From Chytridium lagenaria (Eukaryota > Chytridiomycota > Chytridiomycetes > Chytridiales > Chytridiaceae), in contig JAHLKC010000063.1 of assembly GCA_025449115.1 (NCBI GenBank), positions 124,001 through 188,000 on the forward strand: a stretch of DNA of 64,000 nt, written 5' to 3'. The notes below the pieces were generated by a model. That model had not been told where the DNA came from. It ran no database searches and was given only the letters and a program-made list of their open reading frames with translations. Positions within the stretch are counted from its first letter, which is position 1. Every line of letters begins with the position of its first letter. Positions 47,103 through 62,205 of the stretch are shown piece after piece. Made by a program: the position numbers and the translations under genes.

Positions 47103-47691
47103 CCAACACGTGAATTTACCAAAAATGAGCGTCGCACCAAAAAATAAATCGGTCACCAAAGGTATGTCACCGCATACGTTGGTATGCGTTGCCGTGATGG
47201 CATGCCTTCTTGCCATTTCCGATACCAAGAGCAATGCCATTCACACCACATTTGTACATATGATACATAAACGTAATACCCTACAGCTCCTATTAATATC
47301 GCTGCAATATCGGGGCTTCCCCAAGTCCCTGCAGCACTTGATGGAATCACACCGTAGAGGCCAACACGTGAATTTACCAAAATGAGCGTCGCACCAAAAA
47401 TATATATCGGTCACCAAAGGTATGTCACCGCATACGTTGGTATGCGTTGCCATGATGTCATGCCTTCTTGCCATTTCCGATACCAAGAGCAATGCCATTC
47501 ACACCACATTTGTACATATGATACATAAACGTATACCCTACAAGCTCCTATTAATATCGCTGCAATATCGGGCTTCCCAAGTCCCTGCAGCACTTGATGG
47601 AATCACACCGTAGAGGCCAACACGTGAATTTACCAAAAATGAGCGTCGCACCAAAAAATAAATCGGTCACCAAAGGTATGTCACCGCATAC
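47103..47691. repeat. Tandem repeat, unit about 257 bp, 2.3 copies
   Basis: Copies start CCAACACGTGAATTTACC at 47103, 47361 and 47617. The third stops at CCGCATAC (47691), where the LTR begins. The units are almost identical; ORFs of 60-98 residues on both strands are by-products of the repeat. Confidence 0.92.
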
Positions 47692-48659
47692 TGTGAAACT
47701 ACGGCCTCCTACCACGTATCCGAAGGTATGGTAGGAGTTTCGATAGGACTAGTACCTTCTAATGGTACATAGAACGTCTACACACAAATAAATAAAGTTT
47801 AGTGTACTTGACAAAGATAAACAATGTCCAGAGCATGAAAGAATGGAGCTCAATGATGATCAGCGGGAATCAAAGAAGGTAAAGGGAATAAGGGTGGATA
47901 CAAGCACGGGACCAGAAATAAAGGATACTTAGCTGCGGTGTTTTCAAGTAAGTCTTCCTACAACCATTTTTTGCCCATTCCGTCGATCATCGCGGCGGTA
48001 AAGGCGTTTCCTTAGCGTTCCCGGTGCTAAGGGCAATCTCTAAACCCGAAACGACGACGACGAGGGGAAGCTGCATTGATACTCTATCTCACCGGCCGTG
48101 AGCCGAAGGGGGGTTTGCTGATCGGGGCTTTGCAGCAGCCGATCACCCACGCCACGGAACATACGCGGTGTGTCTGAGGACCTGACGGAGGCACCTTCTG
48201 GTAAGACTACTCGATACTAACCTTGGTGCCAGAGGTAGGCGCGTGTGTATGCGAGAAGACCTGGACCTGGGCCTGGACAGGACTGGGGACAGGTTTTGGG
48301 ATGGGACAACTTCTCTATCTTTATTTGTAAGACCCTCTCGCTCAACATAAACATAAACAAAGAATAAATAAACATATAAACAATGGGTATAAATGAGCGA
48401 GGGGATAAAGAAGAGATATATACAAAATAAAACAAAGTCCCAAGATACAAAAGGGCGGTAAACAGGGAAAACCCGACGGCGACATATATACAATGCCGTG
48501 GGAAAACCTGAATACCGTATAAGGTAAGTTAAGACTTACCATGACGAATCCTAAAGACTTCGTTAGTGTACAAGCAGGAGGGGGTAAAAGGAAAAGCCGT
48601 ACATATAGCATCTTGGGAAATATGCTTACGGTGAAATATCATTTATTGAATATTTCACA
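47692..48659 (-). repeat. 3' LTR (left copy)
   Basis: Plus-strand ends TGTGAAACTACGG and GAATATTTCACA. The inner terminus contains a hairpin (GTGAAATAT, loop, ATATTTCAC; about 48631-48658). It differs from the right copy by only scattered changes, indicating recent insertion. Confidence 0.95.
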
Positions 48660-48724
48660 TTCTCCCGGTTTTTAAGTTAAGCCCTAATGGGGCAGAGGGG
48701 ACTTAAACCAGAAAACAAGATGAG

Positions 48725-51480
48725 TTAATCAGAAGATAACTCACTATCACTATTAAAGCGGAAACCATTATTTTCTTCTGGGGTCGTGAACTCAGCGTTC
48801 TTAGTGCGAGCACGTGTGCGCATTGTGAAAGGTACGAGGGGAGCCTTGGGGGGACGACCTCGTTTTCGTTGAGGGAATTTGGCAGACGAACCAGAAGAAC
48901 CGACGGCAGTCGGCAAGTCAATAGTGGGTCCAACAACTACGGAGGGTTGCGGTACAGTAGGTGGTGGTGGATCGGCGGAGGATCCACAATCTTTCGAGGA
49001 CGGCCGCGTACTTTAGGGGGCCGTGAAGCTTTGGCCTTAAGGAAAGCCATGCGTTGCATATGCATAAAGGGAGACCGAACAAGGACGTCATTCCAGTAAT
49101 CCTCAACGAGTAACTTGGGAAGATCTGATTCAAGGTACCATCGATTCTGATGGGAACCTTGTCCTAAATACTTAACAGAATATCGATAAACGCGGTCGTC
49201 TTCATCGAAATCATGGTCGGCGAGACGCTCAATATAAAATTCGGGATCATCAGGATGTGCGTCGGCAACAGTAGGGTCGAACCGTCGAAATAACTCGCGA
49301 TTTACACCAGGATGTACTTCAATGTGAGCGGGTTTACGCTGGAGAACTTCTAATTCACGCCATGCTTTAACTTCTGCAGCAAAGTCATCGTCCTTGGCTT
49401 GGGAAGCGGCATCAGAGGCAAGATCTGAAGGAGGTAGATTACGGAAAGGCCGTAAACGAGCCGCATTAGCCCATCGAGGCATAATACAACCATTGGGTAA
49501 GTACTCAACGAGGTTAAAGTGATTCCGATCAGAAGAAACACTGATAATGCGCATAGGGCCAGCCCACCGAAAAGCAAACTTAGCTGACACTTCAGTGGGG
49601 TGAGGGACAGATAACCACACCTGGTCACCGATGGAGAACTTAAAAGGTTCAACAGCTTGGTTGGCTTTGGATAGAGCATTTTCACGATGGTACTTAGCTA
49701 ACACACCTTTAGCAAGGGCTAACCGAGCAGGTAAGCGGGAAGCATAGTCTTTAGCAGCAAGGCGGTGATCATTTAGGGCACGATCAAGGAATACCTCGAG
49801 GTTTTCGTCCAGAGTGAGGAAGATCGAGGCTTGGTCACGGTAAGTCTGTCGCGAGACAAAACGGCCATGATGGTCGATAACAACATTACCATCAGTGGAG
49901 GGAGTTGAACCACTCACTGGGTTAGATGAGGGACTTGCAGTGATGGGGAAGATATGCGGTGATGAAGCCGAGTTGGGCCATAAAGGGGTGAGGTGCTCGA
50001 CTGAATCCAAGAGAGAGGGACTTATGAGGATACTATCTTGGTAAGAGAGGATTCCTGTAGGCCGATCAAAAGTGAAAGGAGAGGTAGGATCAAAAGAATT
50101 GATAAGTCCAGAACGAGCATAGACTGCTACGAGATAATCGACATGTCGGTGTTTAAAGCGGACAGACCGGATATTATAATAAGGTATGGGGTGTCCATCA
50201 AAGTCGACACCAAAAACGCGACCAGAAGGATAACTTTGGGCGTTATTTTCATGAGTATTATACCGAAGGTAGAGGATATCTAACTTAAAATGGGATATTA
50301 TGGAAGCGAGTCGCTGAGCTACGGTCATGTCAAGGCGGTAACCATGAGTTTGCTTAGACCATAGATTCTTTATTTTATTCCAGCAGGTAACAGAATGTCC
50401 AGCAACGAGGTAAGGAGATGGAGTCTCGACAACAGAGGTTAGGATCTCCGTAGGATCAACGTCCTCAGGCCATCGTTCATCTTCGAACAGGTCCTTAGTA
50501 GAGAACCCAAAACGGAGATCGGCGGGCGTTAAGGCCTCGCGACCAAACATCAAAAGGAAGGGGGTTTCCTGAGTACCAGGGTGGACAGTCGTCCTATAAG
50601 CAAATAGGATGTAGGGTAAAAGCTCATCCCAATCGCCGTGGGTATTCTGATCAATGTAAGCGCGGATCATCTGACATAGGGTTTTATTAAAACGCTCGAC
50701 CAAACCATTAGCGCGGGGCCAATATGGGGCAGAAAAGGATTGATGGAAGCCCAAGATTATACTAACCTTCTTCATCAGTTCACTCATGAACTGTGAACCT
50801 TGATCAGAGTGCATAGTAATGGGGACTCCATACCTACAAAAGCATTCCTCGACGATAACGCGAGCGACGGTGGCTGCTTCAATATCGGGGACTGGAAAAG
50901 CATCAGCCCATCGGGTGAAGTAGTCGGTAAGGACGACAATGTAGCAATTACCTCGAGTACTGGAGATAAGAGGTCCTAGGATATCAACTGCAACTCTATC
51001 CCATGGTTTATGACCAAAGGGGACAGGTCGAATGGAACCTGCACGAAGGGGTATATCTTTTATTCGTTGGCATGAGATACAGGAGGAGACGTGATTACGA
51101 AGGTCACGAGAGATGGTAGGCCAATATCGATCAAGCGTGGTAGGTAAGATCTTCTGATCACCTAAGTGTCCAGAAAAGAGGTCGTCGTGGACCTGAATGC
51201 ACACAGCCTCGTGAAGAGGGCGAGGTACACAGAGTGAGACCCTACAGGCGAACGTTTTACAAGGTAGTCGTGAACATGAGTAACACGGTACAGTACCTGA
51301 TTACGAAGAATCATAGTTCGCGAGTCGCGGAGAACTCGTTTCTGATCATCATCATTCTCAGGTAAAGTTCCAGACTCTAAGAATTCGATTACCTCCTTAT
51401 AATCAGGATCTTGCCGTTGAAGTTCACGGAAATGTTCAGGAGTCTCACGGAAGAGATTGAACTCACTAGTAAGTTGTGGG
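48725..51480 (-). CDS. Integrase with post-core insertion, chromodomain and two AT-hooks (pol C-terminus)
   Basis: Inserts the cDNA copy. A linker (LQRQDPDYKEVIEFLESGTL) and the HHCC zinc-binding end (HDDLFSGHLG ... CISCQR) precede the DDE core. Counting from the Met at 51204, the catalytic residues are Asp74 (VAVDILGP), Asp134 (HSDQGSQF) and Glu170 (NGLVERFNK), a D,D(35)E spacing. Residues about 235-475 form an insertion of unknown type. A GDQVWL ... FRWAGPMRII segment (about 525-555) resembles the usual integrase C-terminal barrel. A chromodomain lies at about 655-705 (FYIERLADHDF; YSVKYLGQGSHQNRWYLESD). An AT-hook RGRPRK is at 48991-49008. After a one-base break near 48965 the frame continues to a second hook KRGRPPK (48845-48865) and a stop at 48725. 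Confidence 0.9.
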
Positions 51481-51569
51481 AGTTCTTGTCGACGTTGGTA
51501 TCCATCATTAGCCATTATTTCTATCAGAGAAGGTAGGGAAATGTCATCATACCTGGGGTCAGAGTTGGT

Positions 51570-52399
51570 CTTCATAGTAAAATGAAGGGCGGCATGGTCG
51601 GTGAGTCCATTAGGGTGACTGTGATCAACGCGCCATGATGAGGGTAAGTCAGCATCAATAAGGATGTAATCTATCCGCCAAACGGGCTTGAACCGTTGTT
51701 GGGGATTATACCAAGTGAAGCCAGGTGATGAGGGTGACGTCTCTCTAAAACCATCTTTGAAACCAAGGCTCAAGAGCTTTGTAAGCCATTGACGTTCTTC
51801 AGGTAAGAAGCCAGAGATGTGTTTATAGATATGAGGGGCACTAACATCTTTGTAAGTATGGGCGATGTTGAGATCGCCGGCGATAATGACGTAACCCATA
51901 TTACGTAACTTTTTATTGAAGTCATAAAAGCAGATAGGAATTGCATCTTATATTCCTGTCGATGAACAAGTCGGGTGCCGTTGGGGACATAAACGTTAAC
52001 AACACTCAGATAGGGAAGTTGAACAGTAAGGCATCTACCTTCTTCTCCATAGGAGCCGATCTCAGGAGTTTCATCAGGATTATAAGACTTACTAAGGTCT
52101 AAACCTTGGATTACCTTTAGGATGGGGATATCATCCCTGATCATGGTCATTACTCCATTTCGTCCAGGTTGGTTGGGTTCATTGAATAATACATGCCAAC
52201 CAGGTGTGTGCTTAAGTGCGTTGCGCATCTTATGGTCTCCAAGCATTGTTTCTTGGAGACACACAATAGAGAAGTTCTCGTTGTCAAGGTATTGTGTGAA
52301 GAACTCGATTTCATCAAGCTCCATGCTTTCCTTCTTATGATAATAATACTTCTTTAAGAATGCACGGAAGGAATTAACATTCCAACTTAGGATTCTGAA
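51570..52399 (-). CDS. ExoIII/APE-type endonuclease domain inside pol
   Basis: All family motifs are present in order: FRILSWNVNS (metal/phosphate Asn), FSIVCLQETMLGD (catalytic Glu), VVNVYVPNG (Tyr, Asn), then after a one-T frame step near 51945 VIIAGDLNIAH (Asp, Asn), GFLPEERQW, FKDGFRETSP, FTWYNPQQRFKPVWRIDYIL (Asp), and LTDHAAL (Asp-His pair). The GFLPEERQW and WRIDYIL phrases match cellular AP endonucleases such as ExoIII/APE1. The domain is on the same strand and in frame continuity with RNase H upstream and integrase downstream. Such enzymes nick DNA at abasic sites, and in LINEs a related domain opens the target. The role in this LTR element is unknown. Confidence 0.9.
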
Positions 52400-52429
52400 A
52401 TCCTGATCAATGTAGAGTGAGGTGGCTAC

Positions 52430-52864
52430 CTCAGGTAGAGGCCATAGTATCTCTAAGTTACGAGCCTCATTCAAACAAAGTTCAATGGGAAGTTCTGGTC
52501 TTGAATGAAAACCAGATGTGATGCCGTAAGTTTGGCGTAAAGTCTGTTCGTTGATAAACGACTTAATTCGCTGTATCTGGAGGATTGGGAAGGCATAACA
52601 CTTGCTAAATCTTTCAGATAGAGTCCCATAAACATCATATGGTTCTGGGAGTTGGCCTGGTGAAATTGAAGGTCCTACAGAGAGTACATGGCTAAGGTAG
52701 CCATCCTCGTGAGAAAAGATCCAGAGGCGTATTGCACCAGGGATATCATGTTTTTGGAACTCATAGCGACGTGATCCACTAAGGAGCTCATCAAGACGTT
52801 GTTTATTTAAACTCAATAGATAATCAGTGGGGATATCACTAGCTTCTTTTTGAATCACATTCAC
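52430..52864 (-). CDS. ASCH/EVE (PUA-like) domain candidate preceding the endonuclease
   Basis: About 145 residues between RNase H and the endonuclease. LLSGSRRYEFQKHDIPGAIR, then LWIFSHEDGYLSHVLSVG, the mid part ERFSKCYAFPILQIQRI and TLRQTYGITSGFHSRPE resemble fungal ASCH/EVE-like proteins (a K/E-rich Y-E-F-R-K start, an aromatic W-x-Y strand, and an L...YGF...P end). PUA-like folds bind RNA or modified bases. The assignment rests on my recollection of the family pattern and is uncertain. The frame upstream of the Met at 52864 runs on into RNase H (VTLENRENDPDGQTFVNVIQ), so this is not a separate protein. Confidence 0.5.
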
Positions 52865-52898
52865 AAAGGTCTGACCGTCAGGGTCATTCTCCCGGTTT

Positions 52899-54386
52899 TC
52901 AAGAGTGACGTCCGCAACGGACGAATGGGAGGAGTGGAAAAGAGACCACGATTGAGAGAATGGCGACGACCAATGTAGATGGTGTCGCTATGAAGGACAT
53001 AGTCGGGGGGGATCTCATCAATAGGGGCATTGGGAGGGAGGGTATCCTTAAAGGCGCGTGAGAGGGCATCAGCAACAGCTTGACTTTTGCCAGGAGTGTG
53101 AACAAGCTCAATATCATGATCATGTAAAGCATACGCAAAACGCGCAAAACGACCCTTAAGGTCGCCGCGTGCAAAGAGTGGGAGAAGAGCAGAGTGATCA
53201 GTCTCGATCCGATAAGAGGTATTCCACGTGTAGTGGGAAAAGGTGTCGGCAGCCCAGACAACAGCAAGGCCTTCACGGTCGGTGTTGGAATAGTTTTGCT
53301 CAGTATCAGATAAGGTGCGGGAAGCAAAAGCAACAGGGTGGTAAATACCATTATCGTTGATGAAAAGGGCGGCGCCCATGCCATATTTAGAGGCATCACA
53401 GGAAATAACAAGCTTATCACCAGCAACAGGAAGACGGCACGTGGTTGTTGTTTAAGAATCTTAATTATAGTATTAAAGGAAGATTGACAGGAGTCCGTCC
53501 ATACAAATGGTGTGTTGGTTTTCAAAAGAGAGGTGAGAGGATACGCGATGTCAGAAAAGTTGGGAACAAAGCGACGGAAGTATTGGGTGAAGCCAAGGAA
53601 GGTAGAGATATCCTTGGCGCACTTAGGAAGAGGATATTCATCTAAAGAACGAAGTTTCTCAGGGTCGGCACTTAAACCATCTTTGGAGACAACATGACCA
53701 AGAAAGGGAAGGACATGAAAGCAAAAGAAACACTTCTTTGGTTTAAGCTTGAGATTATATTCACGAATACGATCAAATACCATACGAAGGTTGGTAAAGT
53801 GAGTATCGGTGTCATGAGAGAAGATGATAATATCATCAATGTAAACCATGCAAATAGACCATTTGAGTCCAGCAAGAACGAGGTCCATGCACCGTTGGAA
53901 GGTTGGAGGGCTGTTAGTGAGGCCAAAAGGCATGACTTTGTATTGCCATTGACCACCAGACGTGACAAAAGCGGTTTTGTGTCGGTCACTTTCAGGGATC
54001 TTAATCTGCCAAAAGCCAGATAAGAGGTCAAGCGACGTAAATAAGTGCATACCAGCCAGACGATCAAATGTTTCGTCAATGCGAGGGAGAGGGTATTTGT
54101 CTTTGACAGTCACCTCATTGAGCCGACGAAAGTCGGTACAGAACCTGAGGGTGCCATCTTTCTTCTTGGCGAGGCAAACGGGAGCGGCATAAGAGGAGCG
54201 CGCAGGTTCAATGATATCGTCGTTAAGCATCTGTTCAATATGAGACTTGATAATCTTAGCACGTTCAATGCCCTCAGGATATGGGGCAGAATTGGGAGGA
54301 CGAGCATAAGGCTTTGTTTCAATAGTGTGTTCACCAGGAGATTTGGTGAGTAACAACATGGGGATCAAAGATGTCGCGATATTCAA
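52899..54386 (-). CDS. Reverse transcriptase and RNase H (Ty3/Gypsy type)
   Basis: RT motifs: DDIIEPARSSYAAPVCLAKK, RFCTDFRRLNEVTVKDKYPL, TSLDLLSGFWQIKI, MPFGLTNSPPTFQRCMDLVL, active site VYIDDII (53832-53843), KKCFFCFHVLPFLGHVVSKD and the connection domain STFLGFTQYFRRFVPNFSDI. A one-base break near 53425 moves into RNase H: CDASKYGMGAALF, FASRTLSDTEQNYSNTDREG, FSHYTWNTSYRIETDHSALL, HDHDIELVHTPGKSQAVADA and LSRAF. Typical Gypsy order. In the minus-strand polyprotein it is followed by the ASCH/EVE-like and endonuclease domains rather than directly by integrase. Confidence 0.95.
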   Translation of the reverse strand: MNIATSLIPMLLLTKSPGEHTIETKPYARPPNSAPYPEGIERAKIIKSHIEQMLNDDIIEPARSSYAAPVCLAKKKDGTLRFCTDFRRLNEVTVKDKYPLPRIDETFDRLAGMHLFTSLDLLSGFWQIKIPESDRHKTAFVTSGGQWQYKVMPFGLTNSPPTFQRCMDLVLAGLKWSICMVYIDDIIIFSHDTDTHFTNLRMVFDRIREYNLKLKPKKCFFCFHVLPFLGHVVSKDGLSADPEKLRSLDEYPLPKCAKDISTFLGFTQYFRRFVPNFSDIAYPLTSLLKTNTPFVWTDSCQSSFNTIIKILKQQPRAVFLLLVISLLFPVMPLNMAWAPPFSSTIMVFTTLLLLLPAPYLILSKTIPTPTVKALLLSGLPTPFPTTRGIPLIGSRLITLLFSHSLHAATLRVVLRVLRMLYMIMILSLFTLLAKVKLLLMPSHAPLRIPSLPMPLLMRSPPTMSFIATPSTLVVAILSIVVSFPLLPFVRCGRHS

Positions 54387-54399
54387 GAACGAGTTTATT

Positions 54400-55228
54400 A
54401 AGCTGATCAGTTAAAGTAGAATCAGTGATATGAGAAAAGTCAAATTGACGTAAAAACTCGTCATCAGAAGTGACGGGAGGGTCGCGAAGATAATCCATTT
54501 TGTCTTCGTGGGACGTTCCTTAGTTCGCATACGAACTTTGGGATCGGGGGAAGGTATAGCATCCACAGAGATAGGAATGTCTTCATGGAGATCGTCGACG
54601 GTGTCAGAGTCCAGAGTAAAGGAAAACATCTCATCCAGAAGGGGAGATGCGGGTGGACTAGGTAAGTGAGTATGAGGTTCACAATTACTGAGAGGGTGAG
54701 TAACCAATGGTGGAAGCGAGGCAACAGCAGTAAGGGTAGAAGCCAGAGGGGACTCAGTGACAGGAGTCGGGGAAGGAGAGATGTGAACATCCGATGGGAG
54801 GAATCGGTAAGGTTGCAATAATGGTTGTAAAATCGTGGACAGAGTTGAGCTCGGGATGAGAAGACAACTCTTGGATGAGGGATAACATCATTGGGATGTC
54901 ATCGGATAACGCTTGAGGTAAGCGGAGGAAGAGAGAAGGAGCTTCGCGAGGTCGTCGACGATGTAACCGAGACGGGTACCCTGAGCAATGAATAAGTCAG
55001 AGTCGGAGATACTGCGAACCATAAGAGGTAGGGTGTAAGAAGCTGATTCAGGGTCAGTGAGGTCTGGAGGGCAGAGCTCGGCATGAGGGACACGAGTGCG
55101 AGGCCACAAGAAGACCACGATCAATATGAGATGCAATAGGATTTATTATATAATGTGATAAAGGAGCGTCGGGAGGACGCGTCAAGCGACAAGGAATAGG
55201 CATCTCAGAGTGGGGAGAGATAGTAATA
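54400..55228 (-). CDS. Protease-RT linker of the polyprotein
   Basis: Broken frames at 54411-54818 and 54888-55293 contain phrases common in Gypsy pol linkers: ITISPHSEMPIPCRLTRPPD and DSDLFIAQGTRLGYIVDDLA. A Pro/Ser-rich spacer with an acidic patch (SDTVDDLHEDIPI) follows. No catalytic motif seen. Confidence 0.55.
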
Positions 55229-56083
55229 TCAGAAGAGGCAACAACGGCAATGTGAGGATTGGGGTGAACAAAGGTAGGAGTTGTTGCAACCAATTGAAGG
55301 GAGTGATGAAAGGAGTAACAACATCATTACGGCGGCATCAGGGCAAAGGGACCAGAACCGGAGGATCTCTTGACTACCTAGCAGATCCATCAAGAAATGG
55401 TTGATGGTAGGTGTACCAAGGATGATGTCTCGAGGACACTTGCGGACGACCTGGAATTCTAAAATGGCTTTAGCACGATAGTCAGAGCCAGGGATATAGA
55501 TAAATAACAACGACAATAAGAGGTTCACGCCACCAACACCTGTAGAGTAGAGTTGACGGGTGTGAGGACGGAAGTGAATAGGAAAGGTCCTATTGTGGAG
55601 TTGCTTAAGGTAAGATAAAGAGATAACATTAGCGTTAGAGCCAGAATCAAGTAAAGCATTTGTAACAAAACGTACCATGGATGCGGGCGCAGATTTTGAG
55701 CTACGTGTGTTTATCACGAGTCGGTAGGGATTTTGGGACCACGTCCACAATAACGGGATCGGTTTGCGTAGAGGTAGTTTGATTATCCTTAATCGTAGAC
55801 GAAAGTGGTGAGGGAGAGACCATTGCATCCGACAGGGGAGCGTTTGGTTCAGAGGCGGCGGTATCAGACTTGATGACGGAAGCCACGAGGATATGGAAGG
55901 AGAACGTGAGACGCGAGGTAGAGTTGAGAGAAGCGTTAACCACTCAGACCGTTGAGACATACGATCCTCATCACTAATAGGTGACGAGAGGAAGTCATCG
56001 GGAACGGGAGCGACATTACATGCGAGGACGTGAAGGGGAGCTGACGATTGGCGGTGACGGAGTACGTTGCCGAGCCTTGGCAA
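55229..56083 (-). CDS. Retropepsin-like aspartic protease
   Basis: The active-site phrase NALLDSGSNANVIS (DSG at 55640-55648) and the downstream flap/dimer phrase PRDIILGTPTINHF are the standard two landmarks of an LTR-element protease that processes the gag-pol polyprotein. The upstream part of this frame is low-complexity and probably not the true frame (a break near 55730-55760). Confidence 0.8.
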   Translation of the reverse strand: MPRLGNVLRHRQSSAPLHVLACNVAPVPDDFLSSPISDEDRMSQRSEWLTLLSTLPRVSRSPSISSWLPSSSLIPPPLNQTLPCRMQWSLPHHFRLRLRIIKLPLRKPIPLLWTWSQNPYRLVINTRSSKSAPASMVRFVTNALLDSGSNANVISLSYLKQLHNRTFPIHFRPHTRQLYSTGVGGVNLLLSLLFIYIPGSDYRAKAILEFQVVRKCPRDIILGTPTINHFLMDLLGSQEILRFWSLCPDAAVMMLLLLSSLPSIGCNNSYLCSPQSSHCRCCLF

Positions 56084-56664
56084 GTGCAGGGGAAGTTGCC
56101 GGAGAGGACTTCAAAGCTGCAGAGAGTAAGCGAGAAGGCTGTAACGGGTTATCAGTAAGAAGCGTGTATAAACAACGGCATACATGATGGAGACTCGGGA
56201 TGAGGAATCAAGGCTTGTACAGCGTCAGGGGTGTAGCCAGCGGGAGATAGTAGGATCGAGATGCCAGCAATAGGGATGGTGTAGAAGTAATGTTATTCCA
56301 ATCATCAGGATTTAGGAAGATGGGAAGGGGAGCTGAAGCGCTAAGGCGCTGTAAGATTGCCGAAAGGAAATCAGGTAAATCAGCTGGAAGAATAAGGATT
56401 CCAGACCGAGAAGTCTGGAGGAGGCAATGGAGAATGGTGAAGCCTCGGACAAAGAGGCCCAGTATAGCGTAAAAGGCGTCAACGACGCATCACTCAAAGG
56501 CGACAATAAAGAAAAAGGCAATAAAGCAATATTAGACGTCACAGAGAAGCTTTTATTAATTGACGGAGTCAATACAACAGGGCTGAGAGAGTGACGTTGA
56601 GGGAAGAAGTAAGCCATAATGGTAAAAAGAAAGAGGTCAGGAATGACATTAACTGAACGTTCAT

Positions 56665-57975
56665 CTAAGGAAGCGGTTTCGGCGAAGGGAGTTGTAGGTG
56701 ACCCTCTAAAATGGGATTAGAAGGATGCACAAATAATGGAGACTTACTATCAAAAAGTTTAGGAAAGTTCCAGCCTCGATAAGCGGGGACATTGCTCAAT
56801 AGGGTGAAAGCCACGACACAGGCGGCAAGGACGTCGGTCGTCAACGAGGGCAACAGGACGATCATCAGAGGTAGAAGTCCCAGCAGGTAAGGGTTCCTGG
56901 CGTTCAAAACGAGGAGGAGGACCAGGGCGAGAAAATCCAGACTGACCAGAGCGGCTAGGAAAGGGCGTTGGTCGAGAAGGGTTGGAGGAATCGAAGGGAG
57001 GACGACGATCATCGCGAAATGTAAGACCTTCAGGACGATAATTACCGCGTCGGTAATCATCAGTGTAGCGACGGAAGGTCTGCTGAACGACATGACCAGG
57101 AGGACGTTGTTGCTCGGGGCGTAGAGTTCGAAGGCATAAGACTCAAAGGAGGTGAAACAAACATCACGATCATCAGGATGCGGGATGGCGAGTTCCTGAT
57201 CGTTTTCAAGGCAAACATCGACCACATAGTCGAAGAGGTGAGTGTTGATATCAGGCTTGCGGCGAGACATTTGCTGAATGGCCTTTTGAACTTCGGCGGT
57301 GATATGACGCTGAACGTCGGCAGGGGAGAGTCCAAGGGAAGAAGAGGACGAAGCACCAGCAGCATGGTGTTTAAACTGCTCGGTGATGATGGTGTAGGCG
57401 GAAACATCATCATGATCCCAGGAGACCATAGAGGTGCCGCTAGAGGTTGTAGCCGTATAGAGTCCAGTTTTGGCGTTAGTGCGCCAACGAGTATCAGAGC
57501 AGCCAAGGAGGAAACGTTCCTTGAGATCCTTCGCAGAGAGCTGGAGGTGTGAAGGGAGGAGAGAGTTTTCCTGCTCGAGAGCCATGAAGACTTTATCGGC
57601 GTCTTCAGCGATGGTGGGAGTCCAGGGGACGTTCTTGATGTCTTCAAGCCAAGAGACTTCATCGTAATAGCGGCAGGTAAGTTTCATGGCCTGATTGAAG
57701 GCCGTCCAGGTTTGATGGTCCAAGAGGGCGGCACTCATTGAGACGGCGTTGCCGATAAACCAGGAAGGGCTCTTGACGCTGTTCCAGGCGTCATCCCAGT
57801 CGCTAAAAGGTCGTTGGGCATCAGGGTGACCTGAGGTGGAGGCAGCGATAAAAGGGATCATGTGACGACGGAGTGTGGCCAGGAATCGGTAGGTGGCTCG
57901 TGGTGAAGAGTTATCGTACCGTAGGGGGAGAGTGCGGCGTTGAAGCTCCTTGATGCGAGCGGCAGCAGACGTCAT
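56665..57975 (-). CDS. Gag-like protein with zinc knuckle
   Basis: A region of about 430 residues upstream of the protease. It has capsid-like helices (FSDWDDAWNSVKSPSWFIGN; ALLDHQTWTAFNQAMKLTCR; LSAKDLKERFLLGC; QRHITAEVQKAIQQMSRRKP) and, after a frame break, a basic Arg/Pro-rich stretch and a zinc knuckle CRLCRGFHPIEQC (CX2CX3HX4C, 56789-56827), one residue shorter than the usual CX2CX4HX4C. It packages element RNA by analogy with gag of the group. Confidence 0.75.
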   Translation of the reverse strand: MTSAAARIKELQRRTLPLRYDNSSPRATYRFLATLRRHMIPFIAASTSGHPDAQRPFSDWDDAWNSVKSPSWFIGNAVSMSAALLDHQTWTAFNQAMKLTCRYYDEVSWLEDIKNVPWTPTIAEDADKVFMALEQENSLLPSHLQLSAKDLKERFLLGCSDTRWRTNAKTGLYTATTSSGTSMVSWDHDDVSAYTIITEQFKHHAAGASSSSSLGLSPADVQRHITAEVQKAIQQMSRRKPDINTHLFDYVVDVCLENDQELAIPHPDDRDVCFTSFESYAFELYAPSNNVLLVMSFSRPSVATLMITDAVIIVLKVLHFAMIVVLPSIPPTLLDQRPFLAALVSLDFLALVLLLVLNARNPYLLGLLPLMIVLLPSLTTDVLAACVVAFTLLSNVPAYRGWNFPKLFDSKSPLFVHPSNPILEGHLQLPSPKPLP

Positions 57976-59167
57976 GACGGGAGAAGGTGTTGAAGGGGAA
58001 GACAGCTTTAGGGGAGGATCAAGTGAAGAAAAACTGGAAAGCTTGTCAGATTTGTCAGGGGATGTCTTAACCGAAGGTGGGGACTCTACCTTAATTACGG
58101 GTGATAGTGACCGTTCAGGAGGGACCCAGAAGGTGCATCGGCATCAAAAGAACCGTGGTAAGTAGAGGCGTACCGGCGTCCTGCAACAGGGGTGAGTTTA
58201 GCAAGGTATTCATAAGCCTTAACCATATCAAAGCTTCCAGACGTTACTCCAGATAAATGAAGGAGGGGACTCGAGGTAGGTGAAGCACTGGGGATGAAGA
58301 AGCAACACCGTGTCCAAGGAAAGCGGTCTCGAGGTCCCAGTCAGGAGGAGGGAAGGAACCAAACGGGATAACGGAACAATCATGTTCGAGGTAAGCTGAG
58401 ACTTTATTAAGAAAAGCCAATCCAGGGGAACAGGAGACGAGTGGGGAGTCCAGAAGAGATTGAAGTGGAAGGGGTAAAGAATCCAGATCAAAGAAGGTTG
58501 AGGAAACATCAAGGTCGTCGGTGACAGCATCTATCCAGTGTGCTCGAACGAGTCGGAGGGTAAAGGTAAGGGCTGTGGGAGGTGTTAGGTCAAGAGAGAC
58601 CGTAAACCAACGAGGACCTGAGCTTGAGAACGTAACTGGTAAGTATAGCAAAGCTGGGGGGAGGGAACGAGCGATGCGAATAAGGATATGGCGAAACCAC
58701 AGAAGGGAGTGATGGCTACGTGGGATCGAGGAGCATAGAAGTAAGGTGCCTGAGAAAGAAGAGGGACTCACTAGCTCACAATAGAAGGGACTATCGCCTC
58801 GAGAAGGACCTGGCAGAACGAGTGGCATGGACAAAGCATCGAAGTCCACGAGGTCTCCAAATCGTTCACGAATGAAGGGGGTCAAAGACTGAACGAAGTG
58901 AGTCCAAGAAGCAAGGGATGTTCGACGTACTGGAGGGTCTAAAGCATCATCAAGGGTGAGAGTAGCATCAACGCGAGGTAAGGAAAACATAAAGTCGGTA
59001 AACGAGTAACTAACCTGACTATGATGTAAACCATCACGAGAAGCCTCCTGCACGAAGAAGATGTTAGCGTGTCGGTCAAGGAGAGAGACAGCGATGCAAT
59101 GAGGGAACAAACCTGAGGGGGTTTGCAAGAGCAAACCAAGGTAAAACGTCGAGGGGATGTTTGACAT
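57976..59167 (-). CDS. Pre-gag region of the polyprotein, unknown domain
   Basis: From Met 59167 (MSNIPSTFYLGLLL) an ORF of about 300 residues is rich in Leu, Pro and Phe and has no motif I recognise (HWIDAVTDDLDVSSTFFDLD; FGDLVDFDALSMPLVLPGPS). A one-base break near 58250 leads to a short piece (MVKAYEYLAKLTPVAGRRYA; TYHGSFDADAPSG), and a further break leads into the gag frame (WVPPERSLSPVIKVESPPS). It probably forms the N-terminus of one long gag-pol. Confidence 0.55.
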
Positions 59168-59284
59168 TGGATCGATAAATTGAAAGGGGTAAATATAAGT
59201 TTCAAATAATTAATGGTAGATCCGTATTTATTACGAGTCAAATTAATTTTGTGTACAAAACAAAAGAAATGTTTTTGACAAAGT

Positions 59285-60362
59285 TCAAGCGGTCTCGTCC
59301 ATGCGAGTGGGCACCGAGGAGGGATCAGTGGTGTTGGGAACCTGAGTGTCAACAGGAGCAGGTTGATCTACAGGAACACTGGGAGTGGGAGCTGGAGGAG
59401 TAGAAGCAGCTGCAGAACGAGACTGAGCAAACGAAGCAAAAGCAGAGACCAATGGACCTGAAGGGGTTGGAACCGAGGTAGGTCGAGAAGAGAGTCGAAA
59501 AGCTGGAGATTCCTTCCACTTGCTAAAGAGGACTGGCTGGGAAGAGACGGGATCCCAGAAAGCGGCAAAGTTGGTAACTAACTGACCAAGCTCTTGACAG
59601 GAGAGGTCGTGGAATCGACGAGGAATATTGTGCTGGTCGAGGAAACCGCGGTCTCGGCGAGGGATCTTGTTGAAGATACGACGGAGGCGGTTGATAGCAG
59701 AAGCACGAACTTTACGACGATAGAGATAAAGGTCTTCGACAAAACGAGAAACGAAAGCGAGGTCCTGAAAGCGTTCAACTTCGTTAGCAGGGTAGGCACC
59801 GATGGTTTTTGGGACCGTCGAGTCGAGGCAGTGAACGTCGGCGAGAAGAGCAGAGGCACGGGCAATACCTTCGTCGAGGTCGAGAGGAGCAGGAGGCACC
59901 GGAGACTCTGCACGAGCAACAGGACAGGAGTCGGTTCAGGAGGATCAGGAGATGGATCCTCAACGAGAATAACTTCAGAGGGGACGCTAACGGGGACGAG
60001 AGCGGTGGAACGACTGGAGCAGGGTCAGCGGTAGCAAAAACAGGGCCTTGGCCAGGAAGGAGGGCTGGAGCAGCAGTGGCGGCAGCAGAGTCAGCCTGGA
60101 TGGTCTTCAAGAGCTCGTAGTACTTATCGACGTTGGCACCAGCAGCACCGGTGGAGATGGCGTGGAAGACACTGGAAAGGCCAAAAGTCGAGAGCTTGTC
60201 GGCAATGGAGGTGTTGGCGTTGACGACGGCAACGGCGTTAATACTACCAGCAACGTGACTGAAGGAGTGGTCGACGGAGGTCTGCGTACGAGCAGTGATG
60301 CCGTGGCCACCGATGTAGGGCGCGAGACGCTTCTTTCTACCACGAGTGCTGGATCGTTGCAC
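59285..60362 (-). CDS. ORF1 of the element, unknown
   Basis: A separate upstream ORF, about 350 residues after allowing one base change near 59920. The start MQRSSTRGRKKRLAPYIGGH is basic; the middle is Pro/Ala/Ser-rich with EVILVEDPSPDPPEPTP. The C-terminal half is structured: DVHCLDSTVPKTIGAYPANE, VEDLYLYRRKVRASAINRLR, FHDLSCQELGQLVTNFAAFW. It stops at 59285, 118 bp before the next Met. No family recognised; an RNA-binding or structural protein is a guess from the basic N-terminus. Confidence 0.6.
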
Positions 60363-61235
60363 TATTTGTAGGTAGTATAAAAAAAATAAAGATAATTAGC
60401 AATGCGTGATGTAAGAATCTGCACAAAGCTCTAATAAAAAGAGAAATGCTATGTGTGATATAATGATCTGCACAAAGCGTTGGCTCCACCAGGTGACCAA
60501 CCTCTTTATTGGGGTAATAAAAAAATACAATCTTTGAAGCACTTTGTAAAAAAAAGAACCTCAACGGCGGCACGCACAGCGAAGACCACCGTGCTCGACT
60601 TCTCAAGGTGAGTCTATAAGAGCAAGAAGGGAGTGCTGTCTAATAGGACGAGCAAGGAGAAAAGGACAAAAGGGGAGGGAGTCCAGAAATCCAAAGCTCC
60701 AGTAGAGATCCGGTGAGTCCAAAGACGGCGGGATCCAGAGGAATCCAAGAGGTTTGACGCAAGGGAGCGTAAAGCAAACAACAAGGAAGCAAGAAAGTAA
60801 AAACTAAGCCGACCAAAGGTGATCGGTAAAACACTTACTTGGGTTGTTAACTTCGATAGGGAGGTACAGTCGAGAGGGTTATGACGAAAAGAACGATGCA
60901 CGGTAAGTGAAGAAAAAAAAACGAAACTGACAAGTCCAACAGACTGACAAACCCCAAAAGGGGGTAAAAAAAGAGGGAAGGGGTGATCAAAGATCACCGA
61001 CGAGAAAGGAGGGGTTGGACAAAACCGACGATATCTGGGCAACCCGGCGGCTGATCACGACGGGGGGGACGGCATTCGAAAGCGCCGTAGCCACAGCATA
61101 TGCGTAGTAATTTGTGGTGTCCTAGGTGCAGAGATCCTCGAGAACGAGGTCTCGGAACAATCATTTAATAAAAGTGATAAAGAAATACCTTTCTTTTGTC
61201 CATCATCAAGGTCCCAGTTAAGGTTGGGCCCCCAA
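60363..61235 (-). other. Untranslated leader of the element
   Basis: About 870 bp between the 5' LTR and ORF1. The minus ORF 60614-61042 is Phe/Ser/Leu-rich with no domain. It includes the primer-binding-like site next to the LTR. Confidence 0.55.
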
Positions 61236-62205
61236 TGTGAAACTACGGCCTCCTACCACGTATCCGAAGGTATGGTAGGAGTTTCGATAGGACTAGTACC
61301 TTCTAATGGTACATAGAACGTCTACACATAAATAAATAAAGTTTAGTGTACTTGACAAAGATAAACAATGTCCAGAGCATGAAAGAATGGAGCTCAATGA
61401 TGATCAGCGGGAATAAACGAAAGGTAAAGGGAATAGGGTGGATACAAGCACGGGACCAGAAATAAAGGATACTTAGCTGCGGTGTTTTCAAGTAAGTCTT
61501 CCTACAACCATTTTTGCCCATTCCGTCGATCATCGCGGCGGTAAAGGCGTTTCCTTAGCGTTCCCGGTGCTAAGGGCAATCTCTAAACCCGAAACGACGA
61601 TGACGAGGGGAAGCTGCGTTGATACTCCATCTCACCGGCCGTGAGCCGAAGGGGGGTTTGCTGATCGGGGCTTTGCAGCAGCCGATCACCCAACGCCACG
61701 GAACATACGCGGTGTGTCCGAGGACCTGACGGAGGCACCTTCTGGTAAGACTACTTAATACTAACCTTGGTGCCAGAGGTAGGCGCGTGTGTATGCGAGA
61801 AGACCTGGACCTGGACCTGGACAGGACTGGGGACAGGTTTTGGGATGGGACAACTTCTCTATCTTTATTTGTAAGACCCTCTCGCTCAACATAAACATAA
61901 ACAAAGAATAAATAAACATATAAACAATGGGTATAAATGAGCGAGGGGATAAAGAAGAGATATATATACAAAATAAAACAAAGTCCCAAGATACAAAAGG
62001 GCGGTAAACAGGGAAAACCCGACGGCGACATATATACAATGCCGTGGGAAAACCTGAATACCGTATAAGGTAAGTTAAGACTTACCATGACGAATCCTAA
62101 AGACTTCATTAGTGTACAAGCAGGAGGGGGTAAAAGGAAAAGCCGTACATATAGCATCTTGGGAAATATGCTTACGGTGAAATATCATTTATTGAATATT
62201 TCACA
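61236..62205 (-). repeat. 5' LTR (right copy)
   Basis: Near-identical to 47692-48659; promoter and polyadenylation signals of the element should lie here. Differences noted include CACACAAATAAAT versus CACATAAATAAAT and small indels near 61413-61430. Confidence 0.95.

Follow-up and report, generated by a model that had tools for sequence, protein, structure and literature searches.

An exonuclease III/AP-endonuclease-like domain between RNase H and integrase in Ty3/Gypsy retrotransposons of Chytridium lagenaria

The window analysed here is a stretch of 64,000 nucleotides (positions 124001-188000 of contig JAHLKC010000063.1, C63 in our numbering) from the Chytridium lagenaria assembly GCA_025449115.1 (42 Mb, 356 contigs). 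On its minus strand, at 47692-62205, lies a Ty3/Gypsy retrotransposon with a nuclease domain of the exonuclease III (ExoIII)/apurinic/apyrimidinic (AP) endonuclease (APE) type in its pol. The element is bounded by long terminal repeats (LTRs) of 968 and 970 bp, which are 98.25% identical with the ends TGTGAAA..TTTCACA, and consists in order of a gag-like region, protease motifs, reverse transcriptase (RT), RNase H, the endonuclease, an H2C2 domain, the rve integrase core and a sub-threshold chromodomain (Table 1). A first-pass annotation, made from the sequence alone, had placed a full set of endonuclease motifs between RNase H and the pre-integrase linker, in strand and near-frame continuity with both neighbours, and all of the named motifs were located there on the minus strand. 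The extent given to the nuclease (51570-52864) was too generous, as the endonuclease itself covers approximately 51570-52399 and the remainder, 52400-52864, is a separate conserved domain. The continuity of strand also held, but not that of frame: the pol of the window copy is frame-broken at several points, once within the endonuclease, which spans two open reading frames (ORFs; 51770-52864 and 51162-51899). Other ORFs, again separate, hold RT, RNase H and integrase. The window copy therefore does not encode the whole domain in one piece.

Uninterrupted versions were found elsewhere in the genome. A relative on C95 has a single ORF of 1604 amino acids (aa) (L009:2986-7797) that holds RVT_1 (residues 390-548), RNase H (640-738), Exo_endo_phos (981-1247; 3.4e-19), H2C2 (1375-1431) and rve (1448-1544); PF17919 was also among the matches of the RT and RNase H families. 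Similarly, in C198 the matches to RT, RNase H, xth, H2C2 and rve all fall within one stop-free open frame of 2573 aa. The element on C141 is a second copy of that in the window (∼99% identity over the ORF of the N-terminal endonuclease piece) and is frame-broken too, and the diverged relatives in C95 and C50 (∼58% identity over the same ORF) have kept the domain order.

The frequency of this arrangement was determined by combining all 117 xth, 84 H2C2 and 82 RNase H matches in the 42-Mb genome; RT was represented by 98 of the best 150 of 189 candidates and rve by the best 150 of 309, and neither enters the counts of 30, 48, 58 and 77 given below. The xth matches merged into 77 endonuclease loci, 48 of which were followed by H2C2, and 30 were flanked on the same strand by RNase H before and H2C2 after the endonuclease; at the distances considered, no locus had H2C2 before it or RNase H after it. 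The order RNase H-APE-H2C2 is thus far beyond chance. Among the 28 loci that exceeded the xth cut-off, 23 had H2C2 downstream, and at least 15 of these also had RT or RNase H upstream. Counted from RNase H, 58 matches had H2C2 no more than 4.5 kb downstream, corresponding to 56 distinct units on recount by eye (the RNase H of C30 and that of C160 were each split into two matches); 30 of the 58 pairs (30 of 56 units) enclosed an endonuclease and 28 did not. The distances separating RNase H from H2C2 were 1222-1467, 1894-2052 or 2426-2545 bp with the endonuclease and 199-505 bp without it, so that the two classes did not overlap. A further 25 of the 77 loci had no RT, RNase H or H2C2 nearby among the matches listed; these may be remnants, contig ends or host genes. 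The proposal that an APE domain is built into a Gypsy pol was therefore upheld in multiple copies and in single open frames. A nested insertion or chimeric join was ruled out by the uninterrupted ORFs and the 30 units, and a lone host gene by the location in pol.

In the comparison with TIGR00633, the equivalog model for exonuclease III, the C95-type endonuclease (P0004) reached 148.4 bits, well above the cut-off of 99.05, whereas the window pieces, being split, reached 77.0 and 67.7 bits. A sequence search of the PDB with the C95 domain returned ExoIII and APE1 chains, the top match (8.4e-29) being an exodeoxyribonuclease. At the positions that we take to form the E. coli ExoIII active site (N7, E34, Y109, D151, N153, D229, D258 and H259) the residues were unchanged in all eight element rows that fully cover them, and five truncated rows had no substitution at the positions covered, in keeping with the earlier view that the catalytic residues are intact. 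The loop from W212 to D229, which precedes the catalytic Asp, was 15 residues long in each of the 13 element rows (P0001, described below, and 12 rows from this genome, all with a downstream H2C2) as against 18 in seven others (six ExoIII-type proteins and P0010, also described below). The four of nine pairs with measurable dS gave dN/dS values of 0.043, 0.069, 0.101 and 0.144, and the endonuclease is under purifying selection. Judged by its sequence, the pol thus carries a conserved, selected and catalytically complete predicted nuclease.

The first-pass annotation had suggested capture from a cellular AP endonuclease rather than from a long interspersed nuclear element (LINE). In a tree of APE domains, 12 element domains, including a fragment from Irineochytrium, grouped together (99/98), apart from three LINE-type endonucleases encoded in this genome (96/97); the C11 domain had no firm placement. 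This separation and the TIGR00633 score favour a domain that is ExoIII/AP-endonuclease-like rather than LINE-like, though an approximately unbiased (AU) test did not reject joining the elements with the LINE endonucleases (p 0.24). Its source lineage may be bacterial or eukaryotic. A single-sequence fold was useless (pLDDT 34). With an alignment-based model (mean pLDDT 61.7), which spans only the domain's first two thirds and is of good quality in the APE part alone, Foldseek placed Mth0212, APE1 and Apn2 first, and VIA-align gave TDP2 and Apn2 tied, with Nocturnin and other superfamily members also appearing. The domain shares with Exonuclease III, APE1 and Apn2 the full domain (in intact copies), the catalytic residues, the GF..EE motif and a passing TIGR00633 score, and differs in the three-residue shorter loop and in lying inside a retrotransposon polyprotein. 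LINEs have their endonuclease before RT and lack integrase and LTRs, and Dualen has two endonucleases; our elements do not have the LINE layout, and although in both cases a nuclease of the endonuclease/exonuclease/phosphatase (EEP) fold is found in a retroelement, the two are apart in the tree.

The conserved domain at 52400-52864 had no informative Pfam or NCBIfam match (one irrelevant match at 0.013 was far below its cut-off), and it was unmatched in the fold lists, a weak test given the region over which the model is good. An ASCH/PUA-like identity was considered from a resemblance by eye and rejected, PF04266 matching nothing in the genome. Elements of the C198 and C324 types (gap class 2.4-2.5 kb) have yet more sequence in the region before the endonuclease.

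In a tree of RT sequences the endonuclease carriers fell into two distant lineages, and a single clade of all carriers was rejected (AU p 0.0003); C109 was counted as a carrier (its nearest endonuclease match is ∼6 kb away) and C131, a long branch, was left out. Support for a single clade of window-type carriers was only 49/87. For the endonuclease itself, a single APE clade was neither shown nor rejected (61/79; with P0010 added, p 0.08), so one APE origin followed by exchange or losses is possible; the short loop is common to all 13 element rows. Outside this genome, an endonuclease was found in P0001, a 349-aa protein of Irineochytrium annulatum (same family, Chytridiaceae), whose ending resembles by eye the pre-integrase linker of the element. 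A fragment thus occurs in a second genus. Protein-database searches, each limited in the protein lengths considered, gave no other protein with the order RNase H-APE-integrase, and scans of genomic-contig and viral-contig collections gave no relative. P0010, a 1351-aa Gypsy polyprotein (RT-RNase H-H2C2-rve), has its APE after the integrase and represents a second arrangement, which may stem from a gene-model fusion. In P0013, a 952-aa protein with 52 members, RVT_N and RVT_1 are fused to a domain of the ExoIII type.

Target duplications were examined in the six insertions with both LTRs in the fetched sequence, a sample that was not random. Paired LTRs with TG..CA ends were found in the window, C50, C76, C11 and the outer element of C95, and four of the six insertions, drawn from both carrier lineages, had such ends together with 4-bp target duplications: ATAT in C50 (LTRs 99.9% identical), CATC in C11 (98.4%), GATG in the outer C95 element (99.6%) and GGAT in C76 (99.0%). 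There was no target duplication to judge for C141, with a single LTR, or for C198, where the sequence examined showed no LTR pair; the stretches used for these two reached a contig end or were too short. No element was seen at C54, a 100-bp match. The window copy lacked a short target duplication. At 47103-47691 a 258-bp tandem repeat of 2.3 copies ends exactly at its LTR, and because this repeat does not continue on the right side, the missing duplication fits a later rearrangement. At C95 (84701-108734) a window-type carrier is nested inside a carrier of the other, distant lineage; this inner element is flanked by a 216-bp duplication (87011-87226 and 101607-101823, 97.7% identical), its 5′ LTR is short of 8 terminal bases, and the part of the 216-bp stretch that can be aligned to the related C11 element (∼140 bp) is present there once. 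In most insertions, then, the integrase appears to act normally, with one odd case. The 4-bp duplications indicate that the nuclease does not replace the integrase, which disfavours the earlier suggestion of integrase-independent entry as the usual route, and the insertion with the 216-bp duplication leaves room for a second one.

The interpretation to which we lean, while granting it slightly less than an even chance, is that a Ty3/Gypsy pol gained an ExoIII/AP-endonuclease domain that repairs or processes the 3′ ends of the element's cDNA, joining still being done by the integrase; the window-type lineage would have gained a second small domain along with it. The nuclease would share the particle with RT, RNase H and integrase and would have the DNA of the element itself as its substrate. 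There it might cut the cDNA at abasic or damaged sites and remove 3′ termini that are mismatched or blocked, so that the integrase would receive an intact copy with clean ends; ordinary joining would be left to the integrase and not to the APE nuclease. Non-primate lentiviruses have a dUTPase between RNase H and integrase that protects their cDNA, and the role in cDNA maintenance, our best guess, is modelled on this analogy: both are DNA-repair-type enzymes in the same position of pol, although they are different enzymes with different folds.

Other roles can be envisaged. The nuclease could nick target DNA as in LINEs and so provide a second way in, the cDNA being attached at staggered nicks either independently of the integrase or in addition to its action. 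The inner C95 element, with its 216-bp flanks, its trimmed 5′ LTR and the single C11 counterpart, would suit such a route, as would the window copy without a short duplication; we consider it unlikely, since the DDE integrase is retained, TG..CA ends and 4-bp duplications mark four of the six insertions, with both lineages represented, the window copy has a ready explanation in rearrangement, and long duplications have other causes, including assembly error. A stronger form, in which two DNA-cutting systems coexist, the integrase for ordinary insertion and the captured AP endonuclease also opening target DNA, appears slightly more doubtful; if it were true, some insertions would have long target duplications and 5′-trimmed LTRs, bridging LTR and LINE entry. 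The nuclease might instead work on RNA or RNA-DNA hybrids, in primer removal or template degradation or on host mRNA, which the superfamily would be capable of. It adjoins RNase H, its loop ahead of the catalytic Asp is three residues shorter than that of the cellular enzymes used for comparison, and Nocturnin is among the hits of the broad fold comparison, but the sequence reaches the ExoIII/AP-endonuclease equivalog cut-off and an RNase H is already adjacent, which makes this improbable. There is a similarly small chance that the domain, encoded directly ahead of the integrase, tethers or steers it to damaged, nicked or special DNA with cutting not essential, as the catalytic residues that have been kept would be superfluous for a pure tether. 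Finally, the frame-broken window copy and the existence of nested elements (C95) might suggest that the domain order reflects a nested insertion, chimera, assembly artefact or junk; this is barely credible given the uninterrupted ORFs, 30 units of the same layout, two lineages, purifying selection and a second genus.

Apart from the ExoIII/APE domain between RNase H and integrase, which in the window type is accompanied by the further domain, the elements resemble chromovirus-like Ty3/Gypsy elements (Metaviridae) in their LTRs, their protease-RT-RNase H-integrase order, DDE integrase, mostly 4-bp duplications and sub-threshold chromodomain. APE-type nucleases have been regarded as a LINE hallmark, a rule of thumb that these Gypsy carriers break, and domain-based annotation could mislabel them. 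One passage of a fungal co-option survey assigns Exo_endo_phos to the LINE order, noting that the domain is not exclusively TE (transposable element)-derived (PMC10799480), and a section of a chytrid repeat survey (PMC9926174) requires an apurinic endonuclease for LINEs, whereas its list for Gypsy comprises GAG, protease, RT and DDE integrase. Another paper (PMC3248453) refers, with its Figure S1, to complex elements of fungi in which numerous domains are inserted, and ascribes them to multiple insertions. In bdelloid rotifers, LTR elements have likewise gained a nuclease, there as a separate ORF3 (a captured DEDDy exonuclease, of another nuclease fold, or an esterase) with no significant departure from neutrality reported (PMC5408684). 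Within the open-licence PMC literature, subscription papers and Repbase being outside the search, no Gypsy element with an APE domain was recognised, and the RNase H-APE-integrase layout is probably new. If the nuclease does maintain the cDNA, a repair enzyme has been taken up at the place in pol where lentiviruses have their dUTPase, so that LTR elements may be limited by cDNA damage or end repair; the layout suggests that the elements come equipped to repair or trim the DNA copies they make.

Table 1. Features of the Ty3/Gypsy element in the window, with positions counted from the first letter of the window.
Feature	Position	Strand	Basis
5′ LTR	61236..62205	-	direct repeat of 47692-48659
gag-like region (ORFs 56665-57975, 58244-59167, 59285-59899)	56665..59899	-	position
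Aspartic protease motifs LLDSGSN ... DIILGTP	55409..55654	-	motifs located in translation
Reverse transcriptase RVT_1 (YIDD)	53691..54167	-	PF00078 3e-33
RNase H	53050..53379	-	PF17917 1.6e-21
RNase H tail HTPGKSQAVADALSRA	53053-53100	-	located in translation
Conserved domain before endonuclease (RYEFQKHDIPGAIRLWIF)	52400..52864	-	aligns in window, C95, C76, C198, C324, P0012
ExoIII/APE endonuclease, N-terminal piece	51926..52399	-	PF03372 1.4e-6; TIGR00633 77.0 bits; PDB ExoIII/APE1
FRILSWNVNSF	52367-52399	-	endonuclease motif
LQETMLGD	52235-52258	-	endonuclease motif
ExoIII/APE endonuclease, C-terminal piece, other frame	51570..51881	-	PF03372 3.2e-7; TIGR00633 67.7 bits
AGDLNIAH	51858-51881	-	endonuclease motif
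SGFLPEERQW	51786-51815	-	endonuclease motif
WRIDYIL	51660-51680	-	endonuclease motif
TDHAALHFTM	51573-51602	-	endonuclease motif
Pre-integrase linker motif LQRQDPDYKEVIEFLESG	51369..51422	-	located in translation; surrounding ORF has relatives in C95, C50
Integrase H2C2 zinc domain	51058..51195	-	PF17921 7.5e-10
DDE integrase core	50689..51009	-	PF00665 4.3e-13; VDILGP, HSDQG, LVERF located
Conserved extra stretch, integrase core to C-terminus	49834..50403	-	matched in C95, C50, C141
Chromodomain-like C-terminus	49090..49233	-	PF00385 3.4e-4, 20.9 bits; cut-off 25.1
3′ LTR (TGTGAAA...TTTCACA)	47692..48659	-	direct repeat of 61236-62205

For the remaining parts of the element, the inner edge of the 5′ LTR reads TTGGGGGCCCAACC on the element strand and looks by eye like a primer site, without a tRNA match. 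The gag-like region matched no Pfam family below E 0.1; relatives were found for its first ORF in the table (in C141, C95 and C50) and its second (in C95 and C50), and the same search showed none for the third. The protease stretch had no Pfam match, and its two motifs are what we take to be those of an aspartic protease; in the integrase core, VDILGP, HSDQG and LVERF presumably bear the D, D and E. No Pfam family matched the extra stretch that follows this core. Elsewhere in the window, an ORF at 1769-2446 contains a ricin-type beta-trefoil lectin domain (PF00652, 8.7e-10).
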